Source of the DNA: Stutzerimonas stutzeri
Lineage (GTDB): Bacteria; Pseudomonadota; Gammaproteobacteria; Pseudomonadales; Pseudomonadaceae
Reading direction: 5' to 3'
Assembly: GCF_024448985.1 (NCBI RefSeq)
Contig: NZ_JAMOII010000027.1
Span: 1 to 47,668, forward strand
Length of the DNA stretch: 47,668 bases
A program made the translations under genes and the position numbers. Each line of letters begins with the position of its first letter. Positions within the stretch are counted from its first letter, which is position 1. This document shows positions 19,108-36,131 of this stretch, one piece after another. The notes beneath the pieces are model-generated. The model was not told where the DNA came from. It was given only the letters and a program-made list of their open reading frames with translations, and ran no database searches.

Positions 19108-19136
19108 CCGCCCGGCCCTGCGAACAGGGCGGGCGG
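19108..19136 (-). terminator. GC-rich hairpin directly after dctM
   Basis: Twelve G-C-rich pairs with one bulged G and a 4-base loop (stem arms 19108-19120 and 19125-19136) lie 8 bases past the dctM stop. There is no T-run. It probably protects the 3' end or acts with the following terminator. Confidence 0.5.
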
Positions 19137-19143
19137 CGTCGCG

Positions 19144-20424: not shown

Positions 20425-20952
20425 TTAGAGTGTTTCCTTGCTGTCTTCGAAAAGCTCGAAATTGACCGAGCGACGATGGCGTTGATCGCCGAAGCAGAGC
20501 TTCTCAACGATGAAGATCAGACTCAGGAAGCCGCCGATGGCAATGGGTGAGTAAGCGATGCCCACGCGTAGCGTTGGCAAGGTGCTCATATATTGATTCC
20601 AGGTGGCGACGCACAGTTTGATGCCCCAGATCAGCATGAACAGGCAGATTGCGGCCATCAGGAACTGAACCAGAAGATCAATGTAACGCTGCCAGGAAGC
20701 GGGCATGCGATCCGTCAAAGTGGTGACCGCCATGTGCGCACCGGCACGATAGCTGGCCGCCGCGCCGACGAAGGTAAAGATGGCCATTAGCAGTATCGCC
20801 ACTGGTTCGGGCCAGCCGGCACCAGTGCGCAGTACATAGCGGGCAAAAATGCCCCATGGAATGATCAGGGCCATGGCCATAATGGACAAACCGGCAACCC
20901 AGATACAGCTGAGGTAGATCACGTCATTGACGCGTAGTAAGGAATTTTTCAT
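20425..20952 (-). CDS. dctQ: TRAP transporter small permease (DctQ family)
   Basis: This 175-residue inner-membrane protein has four hydrophobic segments, beginning with VIYLSCIWVAGLSIMAMALIIPWGIFARYV. The RTGAGWPEPVAILLMAIFTFVGAAASYRAGAHM stretch is the DctQ core. It pairs with DctM. It is separated from dctP by 65 bases that hold a strong hairpin, an arrangement that usually leaves the binding protein expressed above the membrane subunits. Confidence 0.9.
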   Translation of the reverse strand: MKNSLLRVNDVIYLSCIWVAGLSIMAMALIIPWGIFARYVLRTGAGWPEPVAILLMAIFTFVGAAASYRAGAHMAVTTLTDRMPASWQRYIDLLVQFLMAAICLFMLIWGIKLCVATWNQYMSTLPTLRVGIAYSPIAIGGFLSLIFIVEKLCFGDQRHRRSVNFELFEDSKETL

Positions 20953-20970
20953 GAGGCTTCACCGCGAGCA

Positions 20971-20995
20971 CGACGCCGGCTGCGGGCCGGCGTCG
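20971..20995 (-). terminator. Intercistronic hairpin between dctP and dctQ
   Basis: A perfect 10-pair stem (CGACGCCGGC at 20971-20980 with GCCGGCGTCG at 20986-20995) with a 5-base loop lies between the two genes. No T-run follows. Such hairpins stabilise the upstream message, so DctP would be made in excess over DctQM. This role is inferred. Confidence 0.55.
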
Positions 20996-21017
20996 CGAGG
21001 TTCTTCTGAACGACCTA

Positions 21018-21992
21018 TTACTGGACGGCTTCGATACGCTTGATCAGATCGGTGTAGGCGGCGCCGTACTTTTCGCGTACCGGGGCGGTGGCATCGTAGA
21101 AGGGCTTCTTATCGACTTCGATGAATTCCACGCCTGCGGCTTTGAGCTTTTCTTCGCTGCTGGCGGATTTTTCATCCCAGAGCTTGCGCTCTTCCTGCTG
21201 CGCTTCCTTAGCGTACGTCTTCACCAGTTCCTGTTGCTCCGGGGTGAGCTTGTTCCAGGCCGTCTTGGACATGACGATAGGCTCGGGAAGAATCAGGTGA
21301 CCGGTCAGGGTGTAATGCTTGGCTGTGCGGTAATGGTTGTGCTCGAGCAGCGTCGGCGGGTTGTTTTCGGCACCGTCGACGACGCCGGTCTGCAGTGCGC
21401 TGAAGATTTCCGCGGTATCCATCGCCACGCCCTGAGCGCCCATGGCATTCAGCGTATCGATGAACAGCGGGTTGCCAATCACCCGGATCTTCATGCCCTT
21501 GAGATCTTCGATGCTGCGTACCGGCTCCTTGGTGTAGATGTTGCGGACGCCGCCATCCATCCATGCCAGACCGACCATGTTGAATTCGGATTCAGTGATC
21601 TTGTCGAGAAGCTCCTGCCCGATTTCGCCATCAATGACCTTTCGCATGTGTTCGTGATCGCGGAACACGAACGGCATGTTGAAGGCGTTGACGTCGGACA
21701 CCACCGGACCGAGCGTGCCGAGGCTGACGCGCGTCATCTGGACGGCGCCGATTTGGAGCTGTTCGACCACTTCTTTTTCCGAGCCCAGTACGCCGCCGGA
21801 GAACATCCGGTATTTCAGCTCGCCATCGGTGGCGTCTTCGAGTTTCTTGCCCAGATTCTCCATGGCCACGACGGTCGGATAGCCTGCTGGATGGACCTCG
21901 GCCATTTTCAAGGTGGTCGCGGCTTGTGCGAGGCCCGGCAGACACAGGGCGAAGGGAAGCGCGGCGATGAGCAACTTGCGTTTGAAGTTCAT
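21018..21992 (-). CDS. dctP: TRAP transporter periplasmic binding protein (DctP family), probably uronate-specific
   Basis: This 324-residue protein begins with a signal peptide (MNFKRKLLIAALPFALCLPGLAQA). The family core is present, including DLKGMKIRVIGNPLF with the conserved carboxylate-binding R170, and EIFSALQTGVVDGAENNPP (about 195-213). An in-frame ATG four codons upstream is less likely: GGAGA lies inside that stretch, 6 bases before the ATG at 21990-21992. Perfect AACAACAA motifs lie just before it. DctP proteins next to uronate dehydrogenase and SMP-30 genes bind galacturonate or glucuronate in characterised systems; specificity here is inferred. Confidence 0.9.
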   Translation of the reverse strand: MNFKRKLLIAALPFALCLPGLAQAATTLKMAEVHPAGYPTVVAMENLGKKLEDATDGELKYRMFSGGVLGSEKEVVEQLQIGAVQMTRVSLGTLGPVVSDVNAFNMPFVFRDHEHMRKVIDGEIGQELLDKITESEFNMVGLAWMDGGVRNIYTKEPVRSIEDLKGMKIRVIGNPLFIDTLNAMGAQGVAMDTAEIFSALQTGVVDGAENNPPTLLEHNHYRTAKHYTLTGHLILPEPIVMSKTAWNKLTPEQQELVKTYAKEAQQEERKLWDEKSASSEEKLKAAGVEFIEVDKKPFYDATAPVREKYGAAYTDLIKRIEAVQ

Positions 21993-22005
21993 TTGAATCT
22001 CCATC

Positions 22006-22016
22006 TTGTTGTTGTT
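22006..22016 (-). promoter_or_regulatory. Hfq/Crc motif in dctP leader
   Basis: The minus strand reads AACAACAACAA, two overlapping perfect AAnAAnAA motifs, ending 13 bases before the dctP start and next to its ribosome-binding site. This predicts catabolite repression of uptake. Confidence 0.6.
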
Positions 22017-22079
22017 GATGTTGCAGCGTTGCGAGCGACAAGGTCGGGCGACTGCGGCCTGTCCTTGGTGGGTGAAGCG

Positions 22080-22979
22080 TTAGCGGAAGCGGGGTTCCTC
22101 CAGTCCGGCGACGCCGGGTTGCAGCGCGAATACGCCGCCAGCCAGTGGCTGGTCGGAGAGGTCACCGTTTGGGCGAATGGATGTGACGAACAGGGTGTCC
22201 AGGCCAGGACCGCCAAAGGCGCACATGGCAGGTTTCTTCACCGGCACTTCGAGCGAGCGGTCGAGACGACCGTCCGGTGTGAAGCGATGAACCAGGCCTG
22301 CGTCGTTGCCGCAGATCCAGTAGCAACCGTCGATGTCGACGGCTGCGCCATCCGGACGGCCGGGATACTGATTCATGTCCACGAACAGCCGGCGGTTGCT
22401 CGGCGTACCGCTTTCGATGTCGTAATCGAAAGCCCAGATGCTCTGAACGCTGAGGTGAGAATCCGACAGATACATGGTGCAGCCATCCGGACTGAAGCCG
22501 AGTCCGTTGGGTACGATGAAATCGTTCAGACGTGCACTGAGCGGATCACTGTCGACGGCACCGTCGAGCCGATACAGCGCGCCGGCGGAAATGCCGGCGG
22601 CCATATCCATGACCATGGTTCCCGCCCAGAAGCGCCCCTGGCGGTCGCAGCGGCCATCATTGAAACGCATATTGCCGTGACCATGCTGCACTCCGGCCAG
22701 GCGCGTGGCGTGAAGGGAGCCGTCGTCCTGCGGAGTAACATCGAAGTAGCCGTTCTCCATGCCGGCGACCCAGCGATTGCCTTCACCCTCACGGCGAGCG
22801 ATACAGGCGATCATCTGGTCGGCTGTCCAACGGGTTACCTTGGCATCCGCCGCCTTCCAGCGCAGCAGTTGGCGGTTAGGAATATCGACCCAGTAGAGCG
22901 CTTGTTCATGCGGGACCCAGACCGGACTTTCCCCGGTGGCGTTCTGCGCATCGACTATCAGTTCTGCTTGGTTTGCCAT
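22080..22979 (-). CDS. uxuL: SMP-30/gluconolactonase-family aldarolactonase
   Basis: This 299-residue six-bladed beta-propeller lactonase has the family metal-site blocks: GESPVWVPHEQALYWVDI (Glu ligand near residue 15), RFNDGRCDRQGRFWAGTM (substrate and metal Asn/Asp) and NGLGFSPDGCTMYLSDS (Asn and Asp ligands). Sitting between uronate dehydrogenase and the TRAP genes, it most likely hydrolyses galactaro- or glucarolactone to the open aldarate, as described for UxuL of pseudomonads. A gluconolactonase role is the alternative. The gene is 40 bases downstream of udh. Its leader has a 7-of-8 Crc/Hfq motif (GAGAACAA, 22996-23003). Confidence 0.82.
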   Translation of the reverse strand: MANQAELIVDAQNATGESPVWVPHEQALYWVDIPNRQLLRWKAADAKVTRWTADQMIACIARREGEGNRWVAGMENGYFDVTPQDDGSLHATRLAGVQHGHGNMRFNDGRCDRQGRFWAGTMVMDMAAGISAGALYRLDGAVDSDPLSARLNDFIVPNGLGFSPDGCTMYLSDSHLSVQSIWAFDYDIESGTPSNRRLFVDMNQYPGRPDGAAVDIDGCYWICGNDAGLVHRFTPDGRLDRSLEVPVKKPAMCAFGGPGLDTLFVTSIRPNGDLSDQPLAGGVFALQPGVAGLEEPRFR

Positions 22980-23019: not shown

Positions 23020-23844
23020 TCAATCGTCGAACGGGCCTGCTTCGCAGAAGGCGCCGCCCTGGTAAATCAAGGCAGGATCATTGGCAGCGTAGGGTGGTTG
23101 CGCTTCGATCTTTTCGCGGAACACCTCGGACGTGTCCTTGGGCTCGAAGCCCAGATGCGCCGCCATGTGGTTGTCCCACCAGACGTCACGGTTCGCCGAT
23201 GCGCCGTAGACCACGGTGTGCCCTACGTTCGGGGTGAACAGCGAACGCTCGATCAGGTCGGTCAGATCGCGGTAGCTCAGATAGGTGGCCATCATTCGGC
23301 GGTTGAGTGGCTCGGGGAAGGAAGACCCGATGCGGATGCTGACGGTCTCGATGCCGTAGCGATCGAAATAGAAACTGGCCATGTCTTCGCCGTAGGATTT
23401 CGACAAGCCGTAATAGCTGTCCGGACGGCGCGCCACGCTAGCGTCGATCTTCTCGGTCTGCTTGTAGAATCCGATCACATGGTTGGAGCTGGCAAAGACG
23501 ACACGCTTGATGCCGTGCTTGCGTGCGGCTTCGTAGATATGAAACACGCCTCGGATGTTGCCTTCGAGAACTTCCTCGAAAGGCCGCTCGACCGATACCC
23601 CACCAAAATGCGCAATGGCGTCGACGCCTTCGCAGAGAGCATGTACGGCGGCTTTGTCGGCGAGGTTACAGGTCACCACCTCTTCGTGAGGTCCGGCAGC
23701 GGGTTCCATCGAGGCGATATCGGAGAGGCGAATGATATTGGCGTAAGGGCGAAGCGTTTCGCGTAACACCTTGCCTAAACCTCCTGCCGCTCCCGTTAGC
23801 AGGAGGCGATTGAAGGGTGTGGCAGTAGTTGTCTTGCTTGTCAT
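23020..23844 (-). CDS. udh: NAD-dependent uronate dehydrogenase
   Basis: This 274-residue extended short-chain dehydrogenase matches Udh of Pseudomonas in length and motifs. The Rossmann glycine pattern is TGAAGGLGKVLR (about residues 17-28). FASSNHVIGFY (117-127) supplies the catalytic Ser, and SYYGLSKSYGE supplies the Y145-x-x-x-K149 pair. It oxidises D-galacturonate or D-glucuronate to the aldaro-lactone in the cytoplasm. It is the first gene of the operon udh-uxuL-dctPQM. A strong TTGACA promoter with a palindromic operator lies about 40-90 bases upstream, and a Crc/Hfq motif lies in the leader. Confidence 0.93.
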   Translation of the reverse strand: MTSKTTTATPFNRLLLTGAAGGLGKVLRETLRPYANIIRLSDIASMEPAAGPHEEVVTCNLADKAAVHALCEGVDAIAHFGGVSVERPFEEVLEGNIRGVFHIYEAARKHGIKRVVFASSNHVIGFYKQTEKIDASVARRPDSYYGLSKSYGEDMASFYFDRYGIETVSIRIGSSFPEPLNRRMMATYLSYRDLTDLIERSLFTPNVGHTVVYGASANRDVWWDNHMAAHLGFEPKDTSEVFREKIEAQPPYAANDPALIYQGGAFCEAGPFDD

Positions 23845-23869: not shown

Positions 23870-23882
23870 TTGATGTCATCGG

Positions 23883-23933
23883 TTGTCAGATGACTTGTGC
23901 TCGATTATTTGCGGCGCCGTAGGCGTTTGTCAA
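23883..23933 (-). promoter_or_regulatory. udh promoter with palindromic operator
   Basis: On the minus strand a perfect -35 TTGACA (23928-23933), an 18-base spacer and a -10 AATAAT (23904-23909) are followed 7 bases later by AAGTCATCTGACAA (23883-23896). The last element covers the expected start of transcription, a position suited to repression. The same order and spacing recur before the second glucarate dehydratase gene and oprD. The palindrome resembles GntR-family operators; the protein is not in the window. Confidence 0.7.
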
Positions 23934-24227
23934 CCCGCTGTGCCAATAACGCCTCTGCAAACGATCTATGAAATATTCTTCCGACGATTTAGTGCCGAAG
24001 CTCGCGAAATATCCATTCTGTGCGCACTTGCGAGCAATCCGCCTATGGCGCCGGCCACCACGCTAACTATCCGTACGGCGTTTTCACATCCCACCAAAGT
24101 CGTGTTAGCCAGCCCATCGGTGTGCAGCGGAAAAGTTCCGACACGCCACTTAAGTTGTATGACGACGAGAGCTGCTCACTTGACGTGCCCACCTGACCGA
24201 GCATCGGCAAATCATAGTCGGCAGTCA
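23934..24227. other. Intergenic region upstream of the udh promoter
   Basis: Nearly 300 bases between the udh promoter and the terminator of the next operon. Open frames exist on both strands but none has a ribosome-binding site or a recognisable product. I see no repeat or further regulatory site. Confidence 0.4.
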
Positions 24228-24259
24228 CCAAACGAAAGACCGCGCCAGAGGGCGCGGTC
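24228..24259 (-). terminator. Terminator of the gudD-like/tctA-remnant transcript
   Basis: A perfect 9-pair stem (GACCGCGCC at 24238-24246 with GGCGCGGTC at 24251-24259, loop AGAG) is followed on the minus strand by TTTCGTTTGG. It lies 43 bases past the end of the tctA remnant. Confidence 0.75.
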
Positions 24260-24301
24260 GGTGGTCGAGCCCTGTGTCTCGGCAGCACCAGGAGTTTGTT
24301 T

Positions 24302-24490
24302 TCAGGCGCTCTGCAACTTTGTTACGGCACTAGTTTGGCGGCGCAGTGCGGTCACCAGATGCCATAGCACCGACGCAAGCGCCAACAACAGAAAACTGGC
24401 TGAAACCGGATTCGTTAAAAAGCCCATGAAGTCGCCATCCGACAGCATCAGCCCACGGCGCAGATTGGTCTCGGCTCGCGTTGGGGTCAT
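24302..24490 (-). pseudogene. 3' remnant of a tctA-type permease gene
   Basis: The 62-codon reading frame ends like TctA, the large permease of tripartite tricarboxylate transporters. ETNLRRGLMLSDGDFMGFLT followed by NPVSASFLLLALASVLW matches the family's last cytoplasmic loop and final membrane span (E-x-NLRR-x-L...GD...F-x-x-P-x-SA). A complete TctA has about 500 residues, so nearly 90 percent is missing. No TctB, TctC or upstream TctA coding sequence is nearby. The frame starts with an ATG that overlaps the stop of the upstream dehydratase gene (ATGA), so it may still be translated. It is best read as the scar of a deletion that removed an older transporter. Confidence 0.75.
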
Positions 24491-25890
24491 GAACGGCCCA
24501 GGCTGGGTCGCTTGGGATCGTATTTCCAGCCTGGCGCCAGATACTGCATAGCCATGGCGTCGTCACGGGCGCCAGTGGCGACCTTGTTGTAAAGCTCGTG
24601 CGCGGCCATGATCCGATCCATGTCCGGCTCGATGCCAAGGCCCGGCTTGTCCGGCACTTGCACTTCGCCACCGACGATTTGCAGGGGCTCGCGAGTCAGA
24701 CGCTCCTGGCCTTCCTGCCAAATCCAATGGGTGTCGATCGCAGTGATCTTTCCGGGAGCGGCTGCGGCGGCGTGGGTGAACATCGCCAGGGAAACATCGA
24801 AGTGATTGTTGGAGTGCGAACCCCAGGTCAGGCCGAACTGCTCGCATAGCTGAGCGAGGCGAACCGAACCTTGCATGGTCCAGAAGTGCGGATCGGCCAG
24901 CGGAATGTCGACGGCATCCAGGCGGAACGAATGCCCCATCTGTCGCCAATCGGTCGCCACCATATTGGTGGCGGTCGGAATACCGGTCGCACGCTTGAAT
25001 TCCGCCATGATTTCACGACCGGAATAACCATTTTCCGGGCCGCAAGGGTCTTCGGCATACGCGAGGATATGGGCCTGGCCCTTGCACAGTTCGATGGCCT
25101 CAGCCAGGGACCATGCGCCATTGGGGTCCAACGTGACACGTGCGTCGGGGAAGCGCGTCTTGATGCCGGCGATTGCCTGCATTTCCTCGCTGCCGCGCAT
25201 CACTCCGCCCTTGAGTTTAAAATCCTTGAAGCCGTAACGCGCCGCGGCGGCCTCGGCCAGCCGAACGATGGACTCGGGAGTGACTGCCTCTTGATGACGG
25301 ATGTGATACCAGTCATCGGCCGAACCGGTGCCAGCGAGATAGGGCAAATCGGTGCGATTACGGTCACCTATATAGAAGAGGTACGCCAGCATCGGCACTC
25401 TGTCGCGTTGCTGCCCACTGCCGAGCAAGTCTGCCACAGGCACTTCGAGGTGTTGGCCGAGCAGGTCGAGGAGGGCGGCTTCGACCGCAGTGATGACGTT
25501 GTCCAGCCGCAAATTAATCTCGTGTGGCTGCTTCAAAACGGCGGCTTCCGCCTCAGAGGACACCTGATGCTGAGTGGTCTGCGGGCCACCCGCCGAGCCG
25601 CCGGCGATGGCATGGCGCAACATATTCAGCACCCGGTTGTAGCGACCGATCTGCTGACCAATCACCATCGCTTTGGTACGTTCGAGCGCCTGTCGGATAC
25701 CTTCGCCTCCCGGCACTTCACCGATACCGGTGCGGCCGGCGCTGTCTTTGAGGATCACCAGATTGCGGGTGAAGTACGGAGAGTGCGCGCCGCAGAGGTT
25801 GAGCAGCATGCTGTCGTAACCTGCCACCGGAATGACCTGCATTTCAGTGACAGCTGGGGTCGCCGTCTTTGCGTCTAGCATCTGCTGCAT
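24487..25890 (-). CDS. Glucarate dehydratase paralogue (enolase superfamily)
   Basis: This 467-residue protein is a mandelate-racemase-type glucarate dehydratase. The catalytic set is complete: FKDFKLKGG with K225 and K227, metal ligands D255 (TLDPNGAW), E280 (YAEDPCG) and N309 (TATNM), and general base H359 (GSHSNNHF). Compared with the canonical GudD at 28991-30334 it carries about 16 extra residues near positions 98-123 (around [20 protein letters not shown]) and ends in KRPSLGRS rather than KRPCMVR, a little like E. coli GudX. It may dehydrate glucarate, idarate or a related aldarate. AAGGAG lies 2 bases before the first ATG and 11 before the second (25881), so the start is uncertain. Confidence 0.88.
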
Positions 25891-26140
25891 AGCTCCTTGA
25901 TTGTTGTTGTGAGCGAGGGTTGATCAGTTGTGTATCGCGAGGGCCGAGCGTCTCCGTGCCAGCTTTGCAGCAGCGGGGCAGCACGGACTGACAGTGAGGT
26001 CGATTTGATCTGTAACGTGAGAAGCGAACAGTGCAGAGCTCATCGATCCCGCAAACGGAACTCGACGCGTAAGAGACAGCTTGATCGCTAGAGGAGGGTG
26101 GGAGTGATTCATGGCTCTTGAGCTCAGTTTTTGTTATACG
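25891..26140 (-). other. Long leader of the gudD-like gene
   Basis: If transcription starts at the promoter near 26155, the message has a leader of about 265 bases. It contains a 62-codon reading frame (25924-26112, minus) with only a weak ribosome-binding site and no recognisable product. Near its 3' end is a Crc/Hfq motif. No riboswitch fold was recognised. Confidence 0.35.
25901..25908 (-). promoter_or_regulatory. Hfq/Crc motif before gudD-like gene
   Basis: Minus strand AACAACAA, a perfect AAnAAnAA motif, ends 10 bases before the start codon and abuts the AAGGAG ribosome-binding site. Binding there would block ribosome entry. Confidence 0.6.
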
Positions 26141-26190
26141 TTGTCGTATGACTTGATTGGTTTTTTAGCAGCGCTCTGGGTGGATGTCAA
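26141..26190 (-). promoter_or_regulatory. Promoter and operator for the gudD-like gene
   Basis: Minus strand: -35 TTGACA (26185-26190), a 17-base spacer, -10 TAAAAA (26162-26167), then 7 bases later AAGTCATACGACAA (26141-26154). The design is the same as at udh, and the operator differs from the udh one at only two of 14 positions. It lies about 250 bases before the coding start. Confidence 0.65.
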
Positions 26191-26362
26191 ACAATTGAAA
26201 CGTCCCAAACAGGATCTTTGCGATTCATCGGTTAAGCAGCCTTTATTGCGTTTTGGTACTGCTTTGCCATCGAAGCATCATCGGACGTGTACCGGTCGCT
26301 CCATGTCGTTCAGAGGCGCTGCCATGAGCCGCTCGAGAAACTTTCTATAAACGGCTAGCATT

Positions 26363-26384
26363 CATAATAGTTGTACGATAACCT
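26363..26384 (+). promoter_or_regulatory. Weaker operator-like site before kdgD
   Basis: A possible -10 CATAAT (26363-26368) is followed by TTGTACGATAACCT (26371-26384). This resembles the TTGTCnnATGAC sites at udh, the gudD-like gene and oprD but matches less well. No good -35 was found. It is 56 bases before kdgD, the first gene of the plus-strand operon. Confidence 0.35.
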
Positions 26385-26440
26385 ATCTCCAAGGCTGCGG
26401 CCCCACTCATACCGATTAGTTTCATTAGGATGCTCGAACA

Positions 26441-27352
26441 ATGAATCCACAAGAACTGAAGGCCATCCTCTCTTCTGGTCTGCTGTCCTTCCCGCTCACC
26501 GATTTCGACCAGCAGGGCGACTTCAACCGTGCCGGTTATATCAAGCGCCTGGAATGGCTGGCGCCTTATGGTGCGACGGCGCTTTTCGCTGCGGGTGGCA
26601 CTGGCGAATTCTTCTCGCTGACACCTCAGGAATATCCGGACATCATCAAGACCGCTGTCGATACTTGCGCCGGGCAGGTGCCGATCCTCGCTGGTGTCGG
26701 CGGCCCGACTCGTCAGGCCATCGCCTATGCCCAGGAAGCGGAGCGTCTGGGGGCGAAAGGTCTGCTGTTGCTGCCTCACTACTTGACTGAAGCCAGCCAG
26801 GAAGGTGTCGCCAGACACGTCGAGGAGGTGTGCAAGTCGGTCAATATCGGTGTGGTGGTCTACAACCGCAACGTTTGCCGGCTGACTGCGCCGCTGCTCG
26901 AGCAACTGGCCGACCGCTGCCCCAACCTGATCGGTTACAAGGACGGCCTGGGCGATATCGAGCTGATGGTGTCCATCCGTCGTCGTCTCGGCGAGCGTCT
27001 GACCTATCTGGGTGGCCTGCCGACTGCCGAAGTCTATGCCGCGGCATACAAGGCGCTCGGCGTTCCGGTCTATTCATCTGCGGTGTTCAACTTCGTTCCG
27101 AAGATGGCGATGGAGTTCTACCATGCCGTCGCCCGCGAGGATCACGAAACCGTCGGTAAGCTGATCGATGATTTCTTCCTGCCGTATCTCGACATCCGCA
27201 ACCGTTGCAAGGGCTACGCGGTCAGCATCGTCAAGGCCGGCGCGCGTATATCTGGTTACGATGCCGGCCCGGTTCGCGCACCCTTGACCGAGCTGCGACC
27301 TGAAGAATACGAAGCGCTCGCCGCTTTGGTCGAAAAGCAGGGCGCTCAATAA
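26441..27352 (+). CDS. kdgD: 5-dehydro-4-deoxyglucarate dehydratase
   Basis: This 303-residue protein belongs to the DHDPS/NAL aldolase family and has the full length of KdgD. The substrate loop [10 protein letters not shown] is at residues 52-61, the catalytic Tyr is Y141 (VVVYNRN), and the Schiff-base lysine is K167 ([10 protein letters not shown]). It removes water and CO2 from 5-dehydro-4-deoxyglucarate to give 2-oxoglutarate semialdehyde, the common step for glucarate and galactarate. It is the first gene of the operon kdgD-KGSADH-gudD-garD. The start overlaps AACAATGA, a 7-of-8 Crc/Hfq motif. AGGA lies about 10 bases upstream. Confidence 0.95.
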
Positions 27353-27448
27353 CGGTCCAGCCCGATCTATCACTCGCCCCACCCGCCGCCGGCGCCCGCC
27401 ATCCATTGGCATGGCGCGGTCGGCGGACCTCACGCAGGAGAGAGCTCC

Positions 27449-28891
27449 GTGGCAGACGTAAAACGTTACGACAACTACATCGATGGCCAGTGGGTAACCG
27501 GCAAGAACTATCAGGCCAACATCAATCCATCCGATCTCTCGGACGTCATCGGCGAATACGCCCAGGCGGACGCTACACAGGTCGAGGCCGCCGTCACAGC
27601 AGCACGCAAGGCATTCCCGGCGTGGTCTACGTCGGGCATCCAGGCACGCGCTGATGCGCTTGAGAAAGTCGGTCTGGAAATCCTTGCCCGCCGCGAAGAG
27701 CTGGGCGCGCTCCTGGCCCGCGAAGAGGGCAAGACATTGCCCGAAGCCATCGGCGAAGTGGCTCGCGCCGGTAACATCTTCAAGTTCTTCGCTGGCGAAT
27801 GCCTGCGTCAGGCCGGCGAAACCCTGCAATCGGTCCGTCCGGGCGTGAGCGTCGAGGTGACCCGTGAGCCACTGGGCGTGATCGGCCTGATCACCCCTTG
27901 GAACTTCCCCATCGCCATTCCGGCCTGGAAGATCGCTCCGGCGCTGGCTTACGGCAACTGCGTGGTCATCAAGCCGGCTGATCTGGTCCCTGGCTGCGCC
28001 TGGGCCATCGCCGAAATCATTTCCCGCGCAGGCTTTCCGGCAGGCGTGTTCAATCTGGTGATGGGCAAGGGCCGTGAAGTCGGCGAAGCCATCGTCAACG
28101 ACAAACGCGTCGATGGCGTCAGCTTCACCGGCTCGGTTGGTGTCGGACGTGGCATCGCCGCGACCTGTGTAGGCCGTCATGCCAAGGTTCAGCTGGAGAT
28201 GGGCGGCAAGAATCCGCAGATCATCCTCGATGACGCCGACCTCAACACCGCCGTCGAGCTGGCCACCCAGAGCGCCTTCTATTCGACCGGCCAGCGCTGC
28301 ACCGCGTCCAGCCGCATTATCGTCACCGAAGGCATCTACGACCGTTTCGTCGAAGCCATGATCGAGCGCATCAAGAAGATCAAGGTCGGCTCGGCCCTGG
28401 AGCAGGGCGTGGACGTCGGTCCGGTGGTTTCCGAGGCCCAGCTGGAACAAGACCTGCGGTACATCGAAATCGGCAAGGAAGAGGGCGCACGCCTGGCCTG
28501 TGGTGGAGAACGCGTCAAGTGCGGCACCGAAGGTTACTTCCTCGCGCCGACACTGTTCGTCGACAGCACCGCCGACATGCGCATCAGCCGTGAAGAGATC
28601 TTCGGACCGGTGGCCAACGTGGTCCGCGTGAAGGATTACGACGAAGCCCTGGCGATGGCCAACGACACCGAGTTCGGGCTGTCTGCCGGTATCTGCACCA
28701 CCTCGCTGAAGTACGCCAATCACTTCAAGCGTCATTCCCAGGCCGGGATGGTGATGATCAACCTGCCGACTGCCGGCGTGGATTACCACGTGCCGTTCGG
28801 TGGCCGCAAAGGCTCGTCCTACGGCCCGCGTGAGCAAGGGCGCTATGCCCAGGAGTTCTACACGACGGTGAAGACCACCTACATCGGCTGA
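27449..28891 (+). CDS. 2-oxoglutarate semialdehyde dehydrogenase
   Basis: This 480-residue NAD(P)-dependent aldehyde dehydrogenase has catalytic C284 (YSTGQRCTASSR), general base E250 (VQLEMGGKNPQ) and the cofactor block SFTGSVGVGRGIA (about 225-237). Placed 96 bases after kdgD, it should oxidise 2-oxoglutarate (2,5-dioxopentanoate) semialdehyde to 2-oxoglutarate, delivering the pathway carbon to the TCA cycle. The start is GTG at 27449, with AGGAG 8 bases before it. Specificity is inferred from operon context. Confidence 0.92.
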   Translation: MADVKRYDNYIDGQWVTGKNYQANINPSDLSDVIGEYAQADATQVEAAVTAARKAFPAWSTSGIQARADALEKVGLEILARREELGALLAREEGKTLPEAIGEVARAGNIFKFFAGECLRQAGETLQSVRPGVSVEVTREPLGVIGLITPWNFPIAIPAWKIAPALAYGNCVVIKPADLVPGCAWAIAEIISRAGFPAGVFNLVMGKGREVGEAIVNDKRVDGVSFTGSVGVGRGIAATCVGRHAKVQLEMGGKNPQIILDDADLNTAVELATQSAFYSTGQRCTASSRIIVTEGIYDRFVEAMIERIKKIKVGSALEQGVDVGPVVSEAQLEQDLRYIEIGKEEGARLACGGERVKCGTEGYFLAPTLFVDSTADMRISREEIFGPVANVVRVKDYDEALAMANDTEFGLSAGICTTSLKYANHFKRHSQAGMVMINLPTAGVDYHVPFGGRKGSSYGPREQGRYAQEFYTTVKTTYIG

Positions 28892-28969
28892 TCAGCCGTG
28901 CCGCTTCATGTGATGCAACTTGGCGAGTTGCATCCATGGCGGCAGATTCGTTTTCGCGCAGCGGACCAT

Positions 28970-28977
28970 AAGAACAA
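28970..28977 (+). promoter_or_regulatory. Hfq/Crc motif before gudD
   Basis: AAGAACAA is a perfect AAnAAnAA motif ending 13 bases before the gudD start, next to its purine-rich ribosome-binding site. Confidence 0.5.
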
Positions 28978-28990
28978 TAGAGAGAAGCGT

Positions 28991-30334
28991 ATGAACAACT
29001 CTGCGAATCGAGGCGCTCCGGTCGTCACCGAACTTCAGGTGGTTCCGGTCGCCGGTCAGGACAGCATGCTGCTCAATCTGAGCGGCGCACATGGTCCGTA
29101 TTTCACCCGCAACATCCTCATTCTCAAAGACAGCGCCGGCAACACCGGAGTCGGTGAAGTCCCCGGTGGCGAGGCGATTCGCCAGACCCTGGAAGATGCA
29201 CGTGCCATCCTTGTCGGTCAGTCGGTCGGCAATTTCAATGGTCTGCTCAATCAGGCCCGTAAGGCGTTCGCCGACCGCGACGTCGCGGGCCGCGGCCTGC
29301 AGACTTTCGATCTGCGTATCGCCATTCATGCCATTACCGCAATCGAGTCGGCATTGCTGGACCTGCTCGGCCAGCATCTCAACGTGCCGGTTGCGGCCTT
29401 GCTCGGTGATGGGCAACAGCGCGACGAAGTCGAGATGCTCGGTTATTTGTTCTTCATTGCCGATCGCAACAAGACTGACCTCGGCTACCGCGACGAATCG
29501 GATGCCAGCGACGCCTGGTTCCGGGTGCGCAATGAAGAAGCATTGACCCCCGAGACGGTCGTACGTCAGGCCGAAGCGGCCTACGAGCGTTACGGCTTCA
29601 AGGATTTCAAACTCAAGGGCGGCGTGCTGCCGGGCAGCGAAGAGGTCAAGGCGATCCGTGCGCTGGCTGAGCGTTTCCCCGATGCCCGCATTACGCTGGA
29701 CCCCAACGGGGCCTGGTCGCTGGCCGAGGCCATCGATTTGTGCAAAGACCTGCACGGCGTGCTGGCATATGCCGAAGACCCGAGTGGCGCCGAGAACGGT
29801 TATTCCGGTCGTGAAGTCATGGCTGAATTCCGTCGTGCCACTGGCCTGCCAACCGCGACCAATATGATCGCGACCGATTGGCGACAGATGGGTCACACCG
29901 TTCAGCTGCAATCGGTGGACATCCCGCTGGCAGATCCGCACTTCTGGACCATGAGCGGTTCGGTGCGTGTGGCGCAGATGTGTAATGACTGGGGCCTGAC
30001 CTGGGGCTCGCATTCCAACAATCATTTCGACATTTCGCTGGCGATGTTCACCCACGTGGCCGCTGCGGCGCCGGGCAAGATCACCGCGATCGACACCCAT
30101 TGGATCTGGCAGGACGGCCAATACCTGACCCGTGAACCGTTGCAGATCGTTGGTGGCAAGGTCGCCGTGCCGGCCAAGGCAGGGCTGGGGATCGAGCTGG
30201 ACATGGATGCGCTGCAGAAAGCCCATGAGCTGTATCTGGAGAAAGGACTTGGCGCACGCGACGATGCCATCGCCATGCAGTTCCTGATTTCGGATTGGAC
30301 CTTCAACAACAAGCGACCGTGCATGGTGCGCTGA
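28991..30334 (+). CDS. gudD: Glucarate dehydratase
   Basis: This 447-residue enzyme aligns along its whole length with E. coli GudD (446), including the end NKRPCMVR. K207 and K209 (FKLKGG) and H341 (SHSNNHF) form the active site, with metal ligands in [15 protein letters not shown] and TATNM. It converts D-glucarate (and L-idarate) to 5-dehydro-4-deoxyglucarate. The frame is open 31 codons upstream, but the ATG at 28991 is chosen because homologues start there and a purine run (AGAGAAG) precedes it. It lies in an operon with kdgD, KGSADH and garD. A second, more divergent copy is at 24487-25890. Confidence 0.95.
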
Positions 30335-30354
30335 TTCGAGCCCATGCAGGCCGC

Positions 30355-30418
30355 TTCGCGAGCAAGCTCGCTCCTACAAGAACGGCACTGCAACCGTAGG
30401 AGCGAGCTTGCTCGCGAA
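30355..30418. repeat. Paired pseudomonad REP element
   Basis: Two 23-base arms (30355-30377 and 30396-30418) are perfect inverted copies 18 bases apart, each holding the palindromic core GAGCGAGCTTGCTCGCGA common in pseudomonad genomes. The element lies between gudD and garD and would form a long hairpin in the message. Its core differs from the other REP family in this window. Confidence 0.9.
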
Positions 30419-30439
30419 CGCCTCCGCAACGCGACCGAA

Positions 30440-30447
30440 AACAATAA
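30440..30447 (+). promoter_or_regulatory. Hfq/Crc motif before garD
   Basis: AACAATAA, a perfect AAnAAnAA motif, ends 23 bases before the garD start. Confidence 0.45.
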
Positions 30448-30470
30448 CCGGGGCCATACCGGAGACTTAA

Positions 30471-32036
30471 ATGAACGAAACCGCCGAACTAATTCAACAC
30501 CAAGATTCACCTCGTTATATTCGTCTGAACGAGGCGGATAACGTGGCCGTGGTGGTCAACGATGGTGGCGTACCGACCGGAGCTCGCTTCTCAGATGGGT
30601 TGGTCACGGTCGAATCGGTGCCGCAAAGCCACAAGGTCGCGCTGGTGGACATCGCCCCTGACCAGCCGGTATGCCGTTACGGGCAGATCATCGGTTACGC
30701 GCTCGAACCTATCGCCTGCGGATCATGGGTCAAGGAAACCCAGCTGCGCATGCCCTCGGCGCCGCCCCTCGACAGCTTGCCAATGTCAGACGCCGTGCCA
30801 CAACGGCTCGAGCCGCTCGAAGGCTTCACCTTCGAGGGTTACCGTAACGCCGATGGCACCGTAGGCACGCGCAACGTGCTCGGCATTACCACCACTGTGC
30901 AATGCGTGACCGGCGTGCTCGATCATGCGGTCGCGCGCATCCGCAAGGAGCTGCTGCCCAAATACCCCAACGTCGACGACGTCGTCGCGCTGACGCACAG
31001 CTATGGTTGTGGCGTGGCGATCAACGCCAAGGACGCCTACATCCCGATCCGCACCGTGCGCAATCTGGCGCGCAATCCGAATCTTGGCGGCGAAGCCCTG
31101 GTTATCAGCCTCGGCTGCGAGAAGCTGCAGGCCGAGCAGGTGATGCACGAGGGCGACGCCTCGGTCGATCTCAGCGAGCCCTGGCTCTACCGCCTGCAGG
31201 AGTCCACCACCGGCTTTGGGGAGATGATCGAACAGATCATGGCCCTGGCCGAAACGCGGCTGCAAAAGCTGAATCGCCGCCAGCGCGAAACCGTACCGGC
31301 CTCCGAGCTGATCCTCGGCATGCAATGCGGTGGCAGCGACGCCTTTTCCGGTATCACCGCCAATCCGGCGCTGGGCTACGCCTCGGATCTGCTGATCCGC
31401 GCGGGCGCCACGGTGATGTTTTCCGAAGTGACCGAAGTGCGCGACGCCATCTACATGCTCACCTCACGCGCCGAAACGCCGGAAGTGGCCGAAGCGCTGG
31501 TGCGTGAAATGGACTGGTACGACCAATATCTGGAGCGCGGCGCGGCGGATCGCAGCGCCAACACCACGCCGGGCAACAAGAAGGGCGGCCTGTCCAATAT
31601 CGTTGAGAAATCTCTGGGCTCCATCGTCAAGTCCGGCAGCAGCGCCATTAATGGCGTACTCGGCCCAGGCGAACGCTTCAGCGGTAAGGGCCTGATCTAT
31701 TGCGCGACACCGGCCAGTGACTTCGTCTGCGGCACGCTTCAGTTGGCAGCTGGGATGAATCTGCACGTGTTCACCACCGGGCGCGGTACGCCTTATGGCT
31801 TGGCCATGGCGCCGGTGGTCAAGGTCTCGACCCGTACCGAGCTGGCCGAGCGCTGGCCAGACCTGATCGACGTGGACGCTGGGCGCATCGCCACTGGGCG
31901 TTCCAGCATCGAGGAGCTGGGCTGGGAGCTGTTCCACTACTATCTGGATGTCGCCAGCGGCCGGAAGAAGACCTGGGCCGAGCGGCACAGGATTCACAAC
32001 GACATCACCTTGTTCAACCCGGCACCAATCACCTGA
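30471..32036 (+). CDS. garD: Galactarate dehydratase, UxaA/GarD family
   Basis: This 521-residue enzyme has an N-terminal SAF-like domain (about residues 15-100) and a UxaA-type dehydratase body. Conserved blocks are [20 protein letters not shown] (about 119-138), [48 protein letters not shown], and [17 protein letters not shown] near the C-terminus; their Cys and His residues probably hold the metal. It converts galactarate (meso-galactaric acid) to 5-dehydro-4-deoxyglucarate, feeding KdgD. GGAG precedes the ATG by 6 bases. The REP pair upstream may uncouple its expression from gudD. All key blocks are intact. Confidence 0.92.
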
Positions 32037-32060
32037 CTCCCGCACTTAGCATACGTTGAT

Positions 32061-32202
32061 GTAGGGCCGAACTCGTTCGGCCAAGAGCTTCGCGGAGGGA
32101 GCGAGGCTCGCCCCTACAGGCAACATTTGCACGGCCTATGTAGGGTTGAACTTGTTCAACCAAAGCTCGGCACTGGATCAGGGCGAATAAATTCGCCCCT
32201 AC
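32061..32202. repeat. Cluster of four REP palindromes
   Basis: Four short palindromes occur within 142 bases after garD: GTAGGGCCGAACTCGTTCGG.. (32061-32082), an imperfect GGGAGCGAGGCTCGCCCC copy ending CTAC (about 32097-32117), GTAGGGTTGAACTTGTTC.. (32140-32161), and GGGCGAATAAATTCGCCCCT.. (32181-32202). Orientation alternates (GTAGGG...CTAC), as in REP pairs mobilised by RAYT proteins. They may also stabilise the 3' end of the operon transcript. Confidence 0.85.
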
Positions 32203-32315
32203 GGTGACCTAGGCGGAAGATACGTACACTGCCGAATGCTCTTATTTCGCAAGATCGAAGCGGCCATAGGTGTCGCAGATATCGTGCGAGCCACCGCTCA
32301 CTATCGAGGTAGCCC

Positions 32316-33243
32316 GTGACCTGCATTCTCCAGCTTGGCCCCCTTACCGAACGTTTCAACCGCAGCCTGGCTGCCGAGCATGAGGTACTGCGCATCTGGG
32401 AGCAGGACGCTGATGCGTTGCTCGATCGTCAGGGTCACCGCATCGAGGTCGTGGTGACCTCCGCGTTTCGGGTGCTCGGCGGCTCTGATCGAACGCTTGC
32501 CCAACCTGCAGGCGATCATCAGCTTCGGGGTCGGCTATGACTCCATCGACGTGGCGGCGGCGCGGGTACGCGGCATTCCTGTGAGCAATACGCCGGACGT
32601 GCTCAACGATTGCGTGGCGGATCTGGCGTTCGGGCTAATCATCGACTGTGCGCGGCAGATGTCGCGTGCCGACCGCTTTGTCCGCGCAAGCGAATGGCTT
32701 TCCGGCGGTTTGCCGCTGGCGACCAGTGTCAGCGGCAAACGGCTCGGTATCGTCGGCCTTGGCCGCATCGGCGAGGCGGTAGCCAAGCGTTCCAGTGGTT
32801 TCGACATGCAGGTGCGTTACCACAATCGTCGACCGGTCGATGGCAGCGCTTACGGTTATGAGCCGAGTCTGAACGAGCTGGCGCGCTGGAGTGATTTTCT
32901 CGTGCTGACTTGCCCGGGCGGGGCGAGCACACGCAACCTGATCGATCGGGACGTATTGGACGCGCTTGGCCCGAACGGCATCCTGATCAACGTGTCCCGC
33001 GGCTCGGTCGTGGACGAACCGGCGCTGGTCGAGGCGCTAGTTGAGGGACGGCTCGGCGGCGCGGGGCTCGATGTTTACGCTGAAGAGCCCAAGGTGCCGC
33101 CGGTTTTGTTCGAGCTACCCAATGTCGTCCTGCTCCCGCATATCGGTAGTGCCACTGCGGAAACGCGATTAGCGATGGAAGAACTGTTATTCGCTAATCT
33201 GCATGCGTTTATCGAACGTGGAGAGTTGGTAACGGCTGTGTGA
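32316..33243 (+). pseudogene. D-2-hydroxyacid dehydrogenase gene broken by a frameshift
   Basis: The gene starts at GTG 32316 with GAGG upstream. It reads TCILQLGPLTERFNRSLAAE... to about 32465, then continues one frame over as GCSAALIERLPNLQAIISFG (from about 32470) and on to 33243. One inserted or two missing bases near 32462-32470 explain the break. The rest is a complete glyoxylate/hydroxypyruvate-reductase-type NAD(P) enzyme: substrate loop SFGVGYDSIDVAAA, Rossmann block GLGRIGEAVAKR, catalytic Arg in NVSRGSVVDE, and His in LLPHIGSATAETR. The repaired length, about 309 residues, is normal. A truncated product could start internally at 32497 but lacks the N-terminal half of the substrate domain. 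A sequencing error is possible. Confidence 0.8.
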
Positions 33244-33308
33244 GCGCGCGCAACCGGTGCGTTCGGATCTTCGTCGCGACGGGGTTGAAGGACGGGATTC
33301 GGGAATCT

Positions 33309-33365
33309 GTAGGGCCGAACTTGTTCGGCCTTTGCACCTCTGCGGCCGAATGAATTCGGCCCTAC
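33309..33365. repeat. REP pair (copy 1)
   Basis: GTAGGGCCGAACTTGTTCGG.. and the inverted GGCCGAATGAATTCGGCC.. ending CCTAC are separated by 13 bases. Copy 2, 125 bases downstream, shares both palindromes, the spacer CACCTCTGC, and the following CCGTTCCAT, so the two arose by tandem duplication. Confidence 0.9.
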
Positions 33366-33433
33366 GGACCTGGGCCGTTCCATAATTATTTGTCTTTTAT
33401 ATTAATGGCTTAGTCTTAATAAGAAATTCGGAA

Positions 33434-33492
33434 GTGCAGGGCCGAACTTGTTCGGCCCTGCACCTCTGCGGCCGAATGAATTCGGCCCTGCA
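33434..33492. repeat. REP pair (copy 2)
   Basis: Near-identical to copy 1 but with GCAGGG replacing GTAGGG at both outer ends, a matched pair of changes that keeps the stem complementary. It overlaps the open frame upstream of the epimerase gene and explains the spurious N-terminal extension there. Confidence 0.9.
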
Positions 33493-33531
33493 GACTTGAA
33501 CCGTTCCATGACAAATCCCAGGAGCCTCAGC

Positions 33532-34440
33532 ATGCAAAGCCCGCCGCCCGATCTGTTCGAAACGCACCTGCAACGAGGGCCGCTACGATTGTCGATCTGC
33601 CCGCCGCTGGGCGGGGCGATTACGCGCCTGGCCTACGACGGGATCGATCTGCTGCGCCCCTGGGACGGTACCAATAACGTGCGCCGCACCGGCTGCTTCG
33701 TGCTGGCACCTTTTTCCAATCGGATCGGTGACGCTGCCTTCGAGCACGAAGGCCAACGCTATCCACTGCGCAGCCTGTCTGCCGAACACCCATTGCCGAT
33801 TCATGGCGTTGCCTGGAAGCGCGCCTGGAGCGTGACCGAACAGGGCGGCGCCAACCTGAACCTGCATTTCACCCATCGACCCGACGGCGAAGCGGCGCTG
33901 GACTGGCCGTTCGCCTTTGAGCTCGAACATGAGCTGCGCCTGGACGAGCAGGGCGTCGATTTACGCCTGAGCCTGCGCAACATCGACACGCGATCGATGC
34001 CGGCTGGCCTCGGCTGGCACCCGTATTTCGCCCGCCATGACACGTGCATGCTGCAATTCTCCGCGCAGTCGGTTTGGCTGAGCGATGAGCGAAACTTGCC
34101 AGCTGAGTTGAAGGAAGTGCCGGCCCAGTGGGATTTTCAGCAGCCACGGCGCCTGGAGTCACAGAACCTGGACAACTGCTTCGTCGGTTGGAATGGGCCG
34201 GCGCGGATCGGTTGGCCGGGCAAAGGTATCGAGCTAACAATGACGAGCGAAATGAGGCATCTGGTGGTGTTCACCCCGCCTGCGGAAATGGGTTTTTTCG
34301 CGATGGAACCGGTTTCCCACGCCAACAACGCGCTCGGCATGAGCGATCCGATGGCGAACGGAATGCGCACCCTGGCACCCGGCGAAGTCATGCGAATCGG
34401 TTGCCGGATCAGCGTCGAAAGGACGAGCCGCTCGCGATAG
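33532..34440 (+). CDS. Aldose 1-epimerase (GalM) family protein
   Basis: With the start at 33532 the protein has 302 residues and the GalM fold. Motifs are APFSNRIGDA (conserved Arg), LPIHGVAW (catalytic His), GLGWHPYF (second His) and FFAMEPVSHANNA (catalytic Glu). The start is set by AGGAG 7 bases upstream; longer in-frame starts at 33448 and 33508 run into the REP repeat. The enzyme interconverts alpha and beta anomers of a sugar in the cytoplasm. Between the garD operon and oprD it may mutarotate uronates to the beta form used by uronate dehydrogenase; that role is inference. Confidence 0.85.
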   Translation: MQSPPPDLFETHLQRGPLRLSICPPLGGAITRLAYDGIDLLRPWDGTNNVRRTGCFVLAPFSNRIGDAAFEHEGQRYPLRSLSAEHPLPIHGVAWKRAWSVTEQGGANLNLHFTHRPDGEAALDWPFAFELEHELRLDEQGVDLRLSLRNIDTRSMPAGLGWHPYFARHDTCMLQFSAQSVWLSDERNLPAELKEVPAQWDFQQPRRLESQNLDNCFVGWNGPARIGWPGKGIELTMTSEMRHLVVFTPPAEMGFFAMEPVSHANNALGMSDPMANGMRTLAPGEVMRIGCRISVERTSRSR

Positions 34441-34600
34441 TAGAAGCGGGCTGCTTATCGTCTCGGCCGAAGCGTAAGCCCTGCGCCATATGCAGGCGGC
34501 AAAGATCATCGGCGGGATTCAGCCGCCCGGCGCCACGCCTCAGCGAAAGGTGCAGCCGCTCCAACAAGACTTCCCACCCGTTTCTCCGTCCACCTGGACG

Positions 34601-34625
34601 AAAAAAGCCCGTCACAAGGACGGGC
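34601..34625 (-). terminator. Rho-independent terminator of oprD
   Basis: On the minus strand a 7-pair stem (34619-34625 with 34607-34613, loop of 5) is followed by six T residues (34601-34606), 54 bases past the oprD stop. Confidence 0.88.
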
Positions 34626-34678
34626 AAAGTTTCCGCAACAGGAGCGAGGAGTGTTGCGTCCAGCGTGGTGAATGCTGC

Positions 34679-35965
34679 TTACAGGATCGAAATCGGATAG
34701 TTGAAGATCAGACGATTCTCGTCGAACTCGTTGGTGCTGAACGAGCTGTCCCGACGCATGCTGGAGTTACGCCACTTGATGTTCAGGTTCTTGAGCGCAC
34801 CACTCTGCACGGTGTAAGCCAGTTCGGACTCGCGACCCCATTCCTTGCCTTCGTCACCGCTTGTGGTAGTGATGTTGTCGCCGCTGATGTAGCGGTTCAT
34901 CAGAGTTAGCCCAGGAATGCCAACACCTGCGAAGTTGTAGTCATGGCGCAGCTGCCAGGAACGCTCATCGGCAGCGTCGTAGGCGGAGTTGAAGCTGTCG
35001 TTGGCCAGCGAAGCGCCGCTGGTACCGTTGACGCGCATCCACTGATCACCGCTGACTTTCTGCAGGCCGACGTAGAAGGTATGGGCACCGGTTTGCAGGC
35101 CGAACAGACCGGAATAGGTCTTGTTGTCCAGGTCACCGGCCAGCGCGCTACCTTCATCCTTGCCGGTGAAGTAGCCGAGATTCGCCGTGAAGGCGAGGTT
35201 GTCACCGATGGGCTGGGTGTGCAGCAGCTGGACGTAGCTCTGCTGGTAGATGTCTTCGAGGCGGGCATGCCACAGGCCGACCTTGGTCTGATCGGTGAAG
35301 GCGTATTCGCCACCAGCGAAGTTGAAGCGATCCGACTCTGCAGTGATGCCGTTCAGTCCGTCGCGATATGTCATGTCGTCCATGCTGCCATTATCACGGG
35401 TGCTGTTCTGGCGCATCTGGCCGCCGTACAGCGTCAGGTTGCTGATCTCCTTGGAAGTGATCATGCCGCCCTCGAAAGTCTGCGGCAGCGAACGCCCGTC
35501 ATCTGCGCGCAATACCGGTACGACTACCTGCCATTCACCGACACGGATTTCGGTTTCCGAGAGTTTGGCTTTCGCAGCTACGGCGATGCGGCCGAAATCA
35601 TCGGCGGGGTGACGATCATCGCCTGTGCCGTGCGTCGGGAGCAGTGCGGTTCCGTAAGTGCCACCACCACCGTCCAACTTCACCGACAGCATGGCCAGCG
35701 CATCGACGCCAAAGCCGATCGGACCGGGCGTATAACCGGATTGAACGTTGAGAATGAAGCTCTGCGTCCATTCTTCGGCCTTATTCTGACCACCGTTATA
35801 GGCCGGATCGACGAAGTTGCGGTTGATGTAGAAATTACGTGCGTTCAAGGTGACTTTGCTGCCTTCGACAAAGCCTTCCGCTGCGTGAGCAGCAGCGGGT
35901 ATGCCAAGTGCCAGCGACAGCGTGCCCGCGAAGACGGCGGCGGACAGTGGATTGCGTGGGGTCAT
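34679..35965 (-). CDS. OprD-family outer-membrane porin
   Basis: This 428-residue porin has a signal peptide (SAAVFAGTLSLALGIPAAAHA) and the OprD mature start (FVEGSKVTLNARNFYINRNF). The family's repeated barrel strands follow (RIAVAAKAKLSETEIRVGEW, SWQLRHDYNFAGVGIPGLTL), and the last strand ends ENRLIFNYPISIL. OprD proteins are 18-strand channels for small carboxylates. The frame is open to 36091, but the ATG at 35965 with GGGAG upstream and a proper signal peptide is correct. An operator shared with udh sits at its promoter, so it probably admits uronates or aldarates. Perfect AACAACAA touches the start codon. Confidence 0.92.
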   Translation of the reverse strand: MTPRNPLSAAVFAGTLSLALGIPAAAHAAEGFVEGSKVTLNARNFYINRNFVDPAYNGGQNKAEEWTQSFILNVQSGYTPGPIGFGVDALAMLSVKLDGGGGTYGTALLPTHGTGDDRHPADDFGRIAVAAKAKLSETEIRVGEWQVVVPVLRADDGRSLPQTFEGGMITSKEISNLTLYGGQMRQNSTRDNGSMDDMTYRDGLNGITAESDRFNFAGGEYAFTDQTKVGLWHARLEDIYQQSYVQLLHTQPIGDNLAFTANLGYFTGKDEGSALAGDLDNKTYSGLFGLQTGAHTFYVGLQKVSGDQWMRVNGTSGASLANDSFNSAYDAADERSWQLRHDYNFAGVGIPGLTLMNRYISGDNITTTSGDEGKEWGRESELAYTVQSGALKNLNIKWRNSSMRRDSSFSTNEFDENRLIFNYPISIL

Positions 35966-35972
35966 TGTTGTT
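35965..35972 (-). promoter_or_regulatory. Hfq/Crc motif at the oprD start codon
   Basis: Minus strand AACAACAA, a perfect AAnAAnAA motif, ends on the A of the ATG, between ribosome-binding site and start. Confidence 0.6.
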
Positions 35973-36084
35973 GTGCTCCCTTTTTTGATGTATCCGCCCC
36001 GCTTAGCCGTACGGCGATAGGCGAGACGGGATGTAGCGCGACCGCACGCAGGCGGCGCATGTCTTGACGCATATCTGTTATCAG

Positions 36085-36131
36085 TCGTCATATGACATTT
36101 CGGATTATGGCGACAGCCGAATGCTTGTCAA
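36085..36131 (-). promoter_or_regulatory. oprD promoter with palindromic operator
   Basis: Minus strand: -35 TTGACA (36126-36131), a 16-base spacer, -10 CATAAT (36104-36109), then 5 bases later ATGTCATATGACGA (36085-36098). This is the most symmetric of the three sites (two mismatches to TTGTCATATGACAA). It covers the expected transcription start, about 130 bases before the coding start. Confidence 0.72.

Follow-up and report, generated by a model that had tools for sequence, protein, structure and literature searches.

Do the sugar-acid genes that lie together on one contig of Stutzerimonas stutzeri answer to a single regulator, and if so, which gene encodes it? The stretch in question, referred to as the window, is the 47,668 base pairs (bp) of contig NZ_JAMOII010000027.1 (C27 here), part of a genome totalling 4.23 megabases (Mb) in 52 contigs. 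A preliminary description of the window had drawn attention to three promoters, those of udh (a sugar/uronate dehydrogenase-like gene), gudD2 (the second copy of a glucarate dehydratase-like gene) and oprD (a porin gene), which share a TTGACA box, a -10 box and a near-palindrome just downstream, and had predicted a GntR-type regulator encoded elsewhere. At a probability of roughly 90%, we judge these sites to be operators of a GguR-type GntR/FCD repressor that is encoded on another contig, C15, and governs a hexuronate/aldarate regulon.

Shared promoter-operators and a candidate regulator gene

All three promoters lie on the minus strand, and the layout reported for udh, gudD2 and oprD was recovered at each of them (Table 1). 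In a simple promoter scan of the window, which found five promoter-like sites compared with 3.6 in shuffles, the udh and oprD promoters are the two best matches (11 of 12 each), and the gudD2 promoter is not listed. The near-palindrome is likewise present at all three, but it had been written too short, as the conserved unit continues for about 7 bp further downstream. The original 14-mer, allowing up to two mismatches, occurs 8 times in the window with 9.6 expected and is therefore not above chance, whereas the 21-bp element GTCATNNGACNACNNATNACA, at the same tolerance, has exactly three places genome-wide, which are the udh, gudD2 and oprD promoters with 0 mismatches each. As a control for this and several other genome-wide pattern counts we used the same pattern reversed, which for GTCATNNGACNACNNATNACA gives 5 matches. 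Since the 14-mer is at chance level and the extended form is specific, the signal is carried by the extended form alone. The reading frame of oprD begins within the oprD operator; the likely start of the gene is the ATG at 35965 behind GGGAG, which would place the operator in the promoter or leader.

Five genes encoding an FCD domain were found in the genome. One of them (G000:C15:18427-19173, minus strand) specifies a protein with a GntR (PF00392) and an FCD (PF07729) domain, both scoring over the cut-off. By our reading of the open frames, it is the sole one of the five without another evident pathway alongside, the other four having as neighbours a 2-methylisocitrate lyase gene, a glycolate oxidase gene, a purine gene and a lactate permease gene. 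The 15-bp form of the site found before kdgD, GTTATCGTACAACTA, has two places in the genome at up to two mismatches, namely the kdgD promoter and the promoter of the C15 regulator, with 9 matches for the reversed control. A genome scan, suggested earlier as a check, leads with the 21-bp form to the three promoters and with the 15-bp form to kdgD and the GntR/FCD gene; looser dyads match these places and others as well.

The site before the regulator gene is conserved. We examined the 30 best-matching regulator promoters, our own genome counted and all of the same genus, and every one carries the dyad 54-58 bp before the start, with the surrounding sequence diverging and a conserved TATGAT lying downstream of the dyad. 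Outside the Pseudomonas set L055-L088, the dyad also precedes the relative of the regulator in five of seven named loci (L012, L016, L027, L050 and L051); in the remaining two, L021 and L024, the exact dyad was not found before it. Additionally, when 79 loci surrounding gudD relatives were retrieved, 27 of them proved to encode a protein at least 48% identical to the C15 regulator. The GntR-type regulator predicted to lie outside the window can thus be placed on C15, with a kdgD-type site in its own promoter and with a presence that tracks the site across genomes. Because of this site, found in our genome and throughout the same-genus promoters examined, the C15 regulator probably represses itself.

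Two operator classes

The core of the operator is the 13-bp dyad GTYRTNNNAYRAC, which fits the GT-N3-AC core rule given for the palindromic operators of the FadR subfamily (PMC4494728). The sites of udh, gudD2 and oprD, which we refer to as class A, have in addition a third half-site, AYRAC, located 2 bp downstream of the dyad. The kdgD site (class B) shares the dyad but has no good third half-site. The motif does precede kdgD, as had been noted, but it cannot be called a weaker copy, since its dyad is complete. When calculating the symmetry of the sites, in scores that are biased because the sites were gathered using patterns, we obtain for class A 2.68 over 7 pairs at the centre chosen earlier and 2.35 over 6 at the 13-bp dyad, while for class B the 13-bp centre is best, with 2.25 over 6 versus 1.65 over 7.

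Sites fetched with a pattern that includes the third half-site are uninformative about it, and for this reason we used gudD-upstream sites found with the 13-mer alone. In that list of named loci, 12 of 12 Pseudomonadaceae gudD2 promoters carry the third half-site, compared with 0 of 9 kdgD sites when the corresponding side is considered, and it therefore marks one promoter class. On the opposite side it appears at one kdgD site (L016) and at one site from a metagenome-assembled genome (L027), and the Caballeronia site of L051 has ATCAC in the third-half-site position. A weaker adjacent half-site 7-12 nucleotides from the site centre has been described for 13 groups of the FadR subfamily (PMC4494728); the half-site reported here differs in that it marks a single promoter class.

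Upstream dyads and the direction of control

A fifth full dyad of the window lies upstream of the udh operator (Table 1), with no divergent open frame of at least 100 amino acids beside it. We examined this arrangement in 60 stretches from related genomes, which were fetched around matches to the 20-bp form GTYRTNYGACRACNNAYRAC, picked by us among the matches listed, and hold 61 sites. A divergent kdgD is absent from 40 of the class A sites, and in 25 of these 40 the 300 bp upstream contain a second dyad, at distances of 58-272 bp; mononucleotide shuffling puts the chance at 0.4% per site, and the genomes, being related, are not independent samples. The second dyad is found at 12 of 14 udh, 8 of 13 oprD, 1 of 1 dctP and 0 of 2 gudD2 sites and at 4 of 10 sites before unassigned genes, and at the oprD gene of the window there is none within 500 bp.

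Activators often act from such upstream positions, and the second dyads speak for the alternative that the C15 regulator is correctly named but that, at some promoters, it activates transcription or both activates and represses it. We consider this unlikely, as class A sites stand just downstream of a TTGACA-type promoter, where a bound protein would hinder the polymerase. Helical phasing of paired sites would favour DNA looping; a Rayleigh test at 10.5 bp over 21 distances gave p = 0.37, and of the five periods tried 11.0 alone fell below 0.05 (p = 0.036, or 0.08 for distinct distances), and we therefore claim no phasing.

The upstream dyad could also belong to a neighbouring gene. In L011, an L-talarate/galactarate dehydratase equivalog (14584-15771) is divergent from udh and lies beside the upstream dyad; in the window, the interval from gudD2 to udh contains no gene for this enzyme. 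Several other fetched udh stretches, for example L185, L202 and L204, also have divergent open frames on the far side of the dyad, and in such stretches the second dyad may act on a different gene; in L012 the intervening sequence holds a LysR-type frame. The open-frame reading gives no divergent frame beside the upstream udh site in L035 or in the window. Furthermore, the close relative L035 has behind gudD2 a 2.9-kilobase tctCBA stretch (11417-14351, covering tctC, tctB and most of tctA; these are our own frame names, and Pfam backs TctC for L193 and L215 only) that is missing in the window, where the junction falls at 24474/24475 and positions 24305-24493 (minus strand) retain a 63-codon tctA remnant of 86% identity. 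The remaining genome has a sole match to the L035 TctA, 37% identical. With tctCBA missing, the surviving upstream udh dyad is either an auxiliary operator or a relict; in the latter case, the corresponding dyad of relatives may control a divergent gene.

Co-occurrence of operator and regulator

Next, we investigated 248 family genomes, calling the regulator at E<=1e-60 and gudD2 at E<=1e-200. The 20-bp form GTYRTNYGACRACNNAYRAC occurs in 90 of the 122 genomes with the regulator and in 0 of the 126 without it; within the genus, the corresponding counts are 40/40 and 0/15. The reversed form shows no link (9/122 with and 5/126 without, p = 0.28). When only genomes without a gudD2 match are considered, the 20-bp form is present in 5 of 19 with the regulator and again in 0/126 without.

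Several observations weigh against the reading of these sites as operators of the C15 repressor. The pattern GTYATNNNACRAC has only 12 matches in 4.23 Mb, and it speaks for the reading that five of them are the udh, gudD2, kdgD, oprD and regulator promoters; the other seven comprise four within open frames of at least 150 amino acids and three outside such frames, and the total is not enriched in comparison with 30 for the reversed control. The looser exact dyad GTYRTNNNAYRAC has 28 genome places, versus 107 for the reversed control: 6 belong to the window (24154, 41925 and one at each of the four promoters), 1 is at the regulator and 21 are elsewhere. As the dyad pattern is unenriched in number, the signal lies in its placement. 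In addition, 32 of the 122 regulator-bearing genomes are without the 20-bp form, 12 of them from genus g6, whose regulators are 64-68% identical. The co-occurrence is confounded with the presence of the pathway, and its counts are unadjusted for shared ancestry; every gudD-positive genome has the regulator, which makes the effects of regulator and pathway inseparable there. Finally, in 20 Pseudomonas loci (within L055-L088), gudD is preceded at about 2 kilobases by an FCD gene 48-55% identical to the C15 gene, and the sequence separating the two genes contains no exact dyad, indicating that at least some relatives of the C15 protein use other sites.

These Pseudomonas loci, and the fact that co-occurrence alone cannot name the binder when most genomes have either both regulator and pathway or neither, leave some room for a different transcription factor that binds the sites and has the C15 FCD gene merely as one of its targets. 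We give this a slightly smaller chance than activation by the C15 protein, as the dyad fits both the FadR-subfamily rule and the printed GguR site discussed below, the regulator's own promoter carries the site in all 30 same-genus genomes examined, and regulator and site are both kept in five genomes without a gudD2 match, with the site in none of the 126 regulator-less genomes. It is most improbable that we are dealing with an RNA element of 5' leaders, or a common promoter-start sequence, and no protein operator. Class A sites do start close to or at the presumed start of transcription, so that part of each would be transcribed, but the same dyad also lies further upstream at udh, off the leader, and upstream of the TATGAT at the regulator promoter.

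Two minor groups of matches were set aside. The sequence GTTGTGCAACAAC at 41925-41937 fits the loose dyad with a different centre and is probably a chance match. Two places of TGTCATNNGACA away from these promoters, on contigs C1 and C11, were rejected as chance, with matrix scores of at most 10.2 around them versus 30.6-34.2 at the window sites, from which the matrix was partly built.

A proposed repression mechanism and its known counterparts

Under the reading that we prefer, control by the C15 repressor, a dimer of the C15 protein would, without inducer, bind the 13-bp dyad over the transcription start and block initiation. Its targets would be udh (with the lactonase and TRAP genes), gudD2, kdgD (with the aldehyde dehydrogenase gene, gudD1 and garD), oprD and its own promoter. 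A hexuronate-derived aldarate, galactarate or glucarate, would most likely free the repressor from the DNA, and this release would switch on the whole route from the outer-membrane porin to 2-oxoglutarate. The third half-site at udh, gudD2 and oprD may allow a second dimer beside the first. We infer repression from the operator position over the presumed transcription start and from the protein family, both of which support it. Taken together, the genes under this presumed control would provide every step of the route, namely the porin, the TRAP transporter, Udh, the lactonase, two glucarate dehydratase-like enzymes, galactarate dehydratase, KdgD and the semialdehyde dehydrogenase. A likeness between promoters thereby becomes a testable regulon with a named regulator gene, and it suggests an unlinked repressor over the whole galacturonate/glucuronate route, the outer-membrane porin included. 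A more doubtful elaboration is that the operator code is graded, with two-half-site dyads at kdgD and the regulator gene, three-half-site operators at udh, gudD2 and oprD, and a distant dyad at udh (in relatives also at oprD) forming either a loop that represses or an assembly of several dimers across both sites, and that the scattered regulon would consequently be switched on in a set order.

Judging from the sequences compared, the regulon is very probably of the GguR type, a form of control known from other bacteria. The GguR regulon of Halomonas comprises udh, lactone enzymes, a hexuronate TRAP transporter and galactarate/glucarate genes (PMC5507952), and here too a GntR-family FCD/FadR regulator is found together with udh (a name given from context), a lactone enzyme, a hexuronate TRAP transporter and galactarate/glucarate targets. 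A binding site of the Polaromonas GguR has been printed as negative-control DNA, and this single printed site, the only one compared, holds GTCATCAGACAAC, which fits the dyad GTYRTNNNAYRAC (PMC8376909). Two Caballeronia loci, each with an FCD gene 55% identical to the C15 regulator, contain this 13-mer without any change. The system described here differs in that regulator and targets are encoded on separate contigs, and in the presence of an OprD/Occ porin promoter with a site, the third half-site and the upstream dyads, differences that may have been published already.

One of the sequence relatives of the C15 regulator with a solved structure is NanR of Escherichia coli, a GntR-type repressor whose (GGTATA)3 operator lies downstream of the polymerase site and is bound cooperatively by several dimers (PMC8012715). 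Both systems have a GntR-type repressor and three half-sites; in NanR these are direct repeats, whereas here an inverted pair is joined by one extra half-site, and binding by more than one dimer is proposed from sequence. Overall, the three-half-site operator and the upstream udh dyad are the less ordinary features of this regulon. Regarding the porin, OccK2 of Pseudomonas aeruginosa (3SZD) had the highest glucuronate transport among the Occ channels tested (PMC3260308). The window porin aligns with 3SZD over almost its full length, but the BenF-like porin 3JTY scores above 3SZD, and the substrate of the porin is consequently not settled by sequence.

Probable target genes and their conservation

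The name uronate dehydrogenase for udh was given in the preliminary description; it fits the context and rests on no NCBIfam equivalog. The gudD2 protein is closest to those of two named loci, both from Stutzerimonas stutzeri, with 97% and 91% identity.

Table 1. Promoters, operators and target genes of the window; operon extents follow from gene order and spacing.
Feature	Position	Strand	Description
udh promoter	23904..23933	-	TTGACA-18-AATAAT, then 7 bp, then AAGTCATCTGACAA; udh of relatives with similar layout
udh operator, class A	23875..23894	-	GTCAT CTG ACAAC CG ATGAC, three half-sites
Upstream dyad, fifth full dyad	24154..24166	-	GTCGTCATACAAC; 272 bp upstream of udh operator
gudD2 promoter	26162..26190	-	TTGACA-17-TAAAAA, then 7 bp, then AAGTCATACGACAA
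gudD2 operator, class A	26133..26152	-	GTCAT ACG ACAAC GT ATAAC
kdgD operator, class B	26370..26382	+	GTTGT ACG ATAAC; 13-mer identical before kdgD in 10 named relatives
oprD promoter	36104..36131	-	TTGACA-16-CATAAT, then 5 bp, then ATGTCATATGACGA
oprD operator, class A	36077..36096	-	GTCAT ATG ACGAC TG ATAAC
udh, NAD-dependent sugar/uronate dehydrogenase-like	23020..23844	-	best NCBIfam match Azf, 125.7 bits versus cut-off 400
Rest of probable udh operon	18111..22979	-	SMP-30/gluconolactonase-like, dctP, dctQ, dctM, EamA permease
gudD2, glucarate dehydratase-like, second copy	24487..25890	-	749 bits, under TIGR03247 cut-off 828.7
Probable kdgD operon	26441..32036	+	kdgD, alpha-ketoglutaric semialdehyde dehydrogenase-like, gudD1 (~29003-30334), garD
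oprD-family porin	34679..35965	-	third best solved relative 3SZD (OccK2)

In named relatives, the dyad precedes kdgD, gudD2, udh and oprD, and this shared site supports the earlier suggestion that porin, TRAP transporter, dehydrogenase and dehydratases make up a single regulon. When the genes downstream of the 61 fetched sites are assigned by similarity to the window proteins, 21 sites precede udh, 15 gudD2, 13 oprD and 1 dctP, and 11 precede none of these. A TTGAC is found within 60 bp upstream in 57 of the 61, and in 56 the distance from the end of the hexamer to the operator is 25-36 bp. For the 11 others, Pfam gives one pectate lyase, three MFS transporters, two TctC proteins and one DUF4440 protein, with one of the TctC assignments falling in stretch L193, which carries two sites. 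No assignment resulted for L203 and L223. In L232, the site falls in the interval separating kdgD from the 3' end of the regulator gene and has no gene assigned to it. These results indicate that in some relatives the site stands before a gene for an MFS or tripartite tricarboxylate transporter, and in one relative before a pectate lyase gene, and the operator pattern is usable to find more members of the regulon in Pseudomonadaceae.

Two individual stretches deserve mention. The garD gene of L035 (3837-5398) is recovered by tblastn in two pieces, 3837-4832 and 4832-5398, possibly reflecting a frame break or a sequencing error. In L197 (832-1599, genome G203), the pectate lyase gene is preceded by a TTGACA and a class A operator, a site that would tie pectin breakdown to the regulon.

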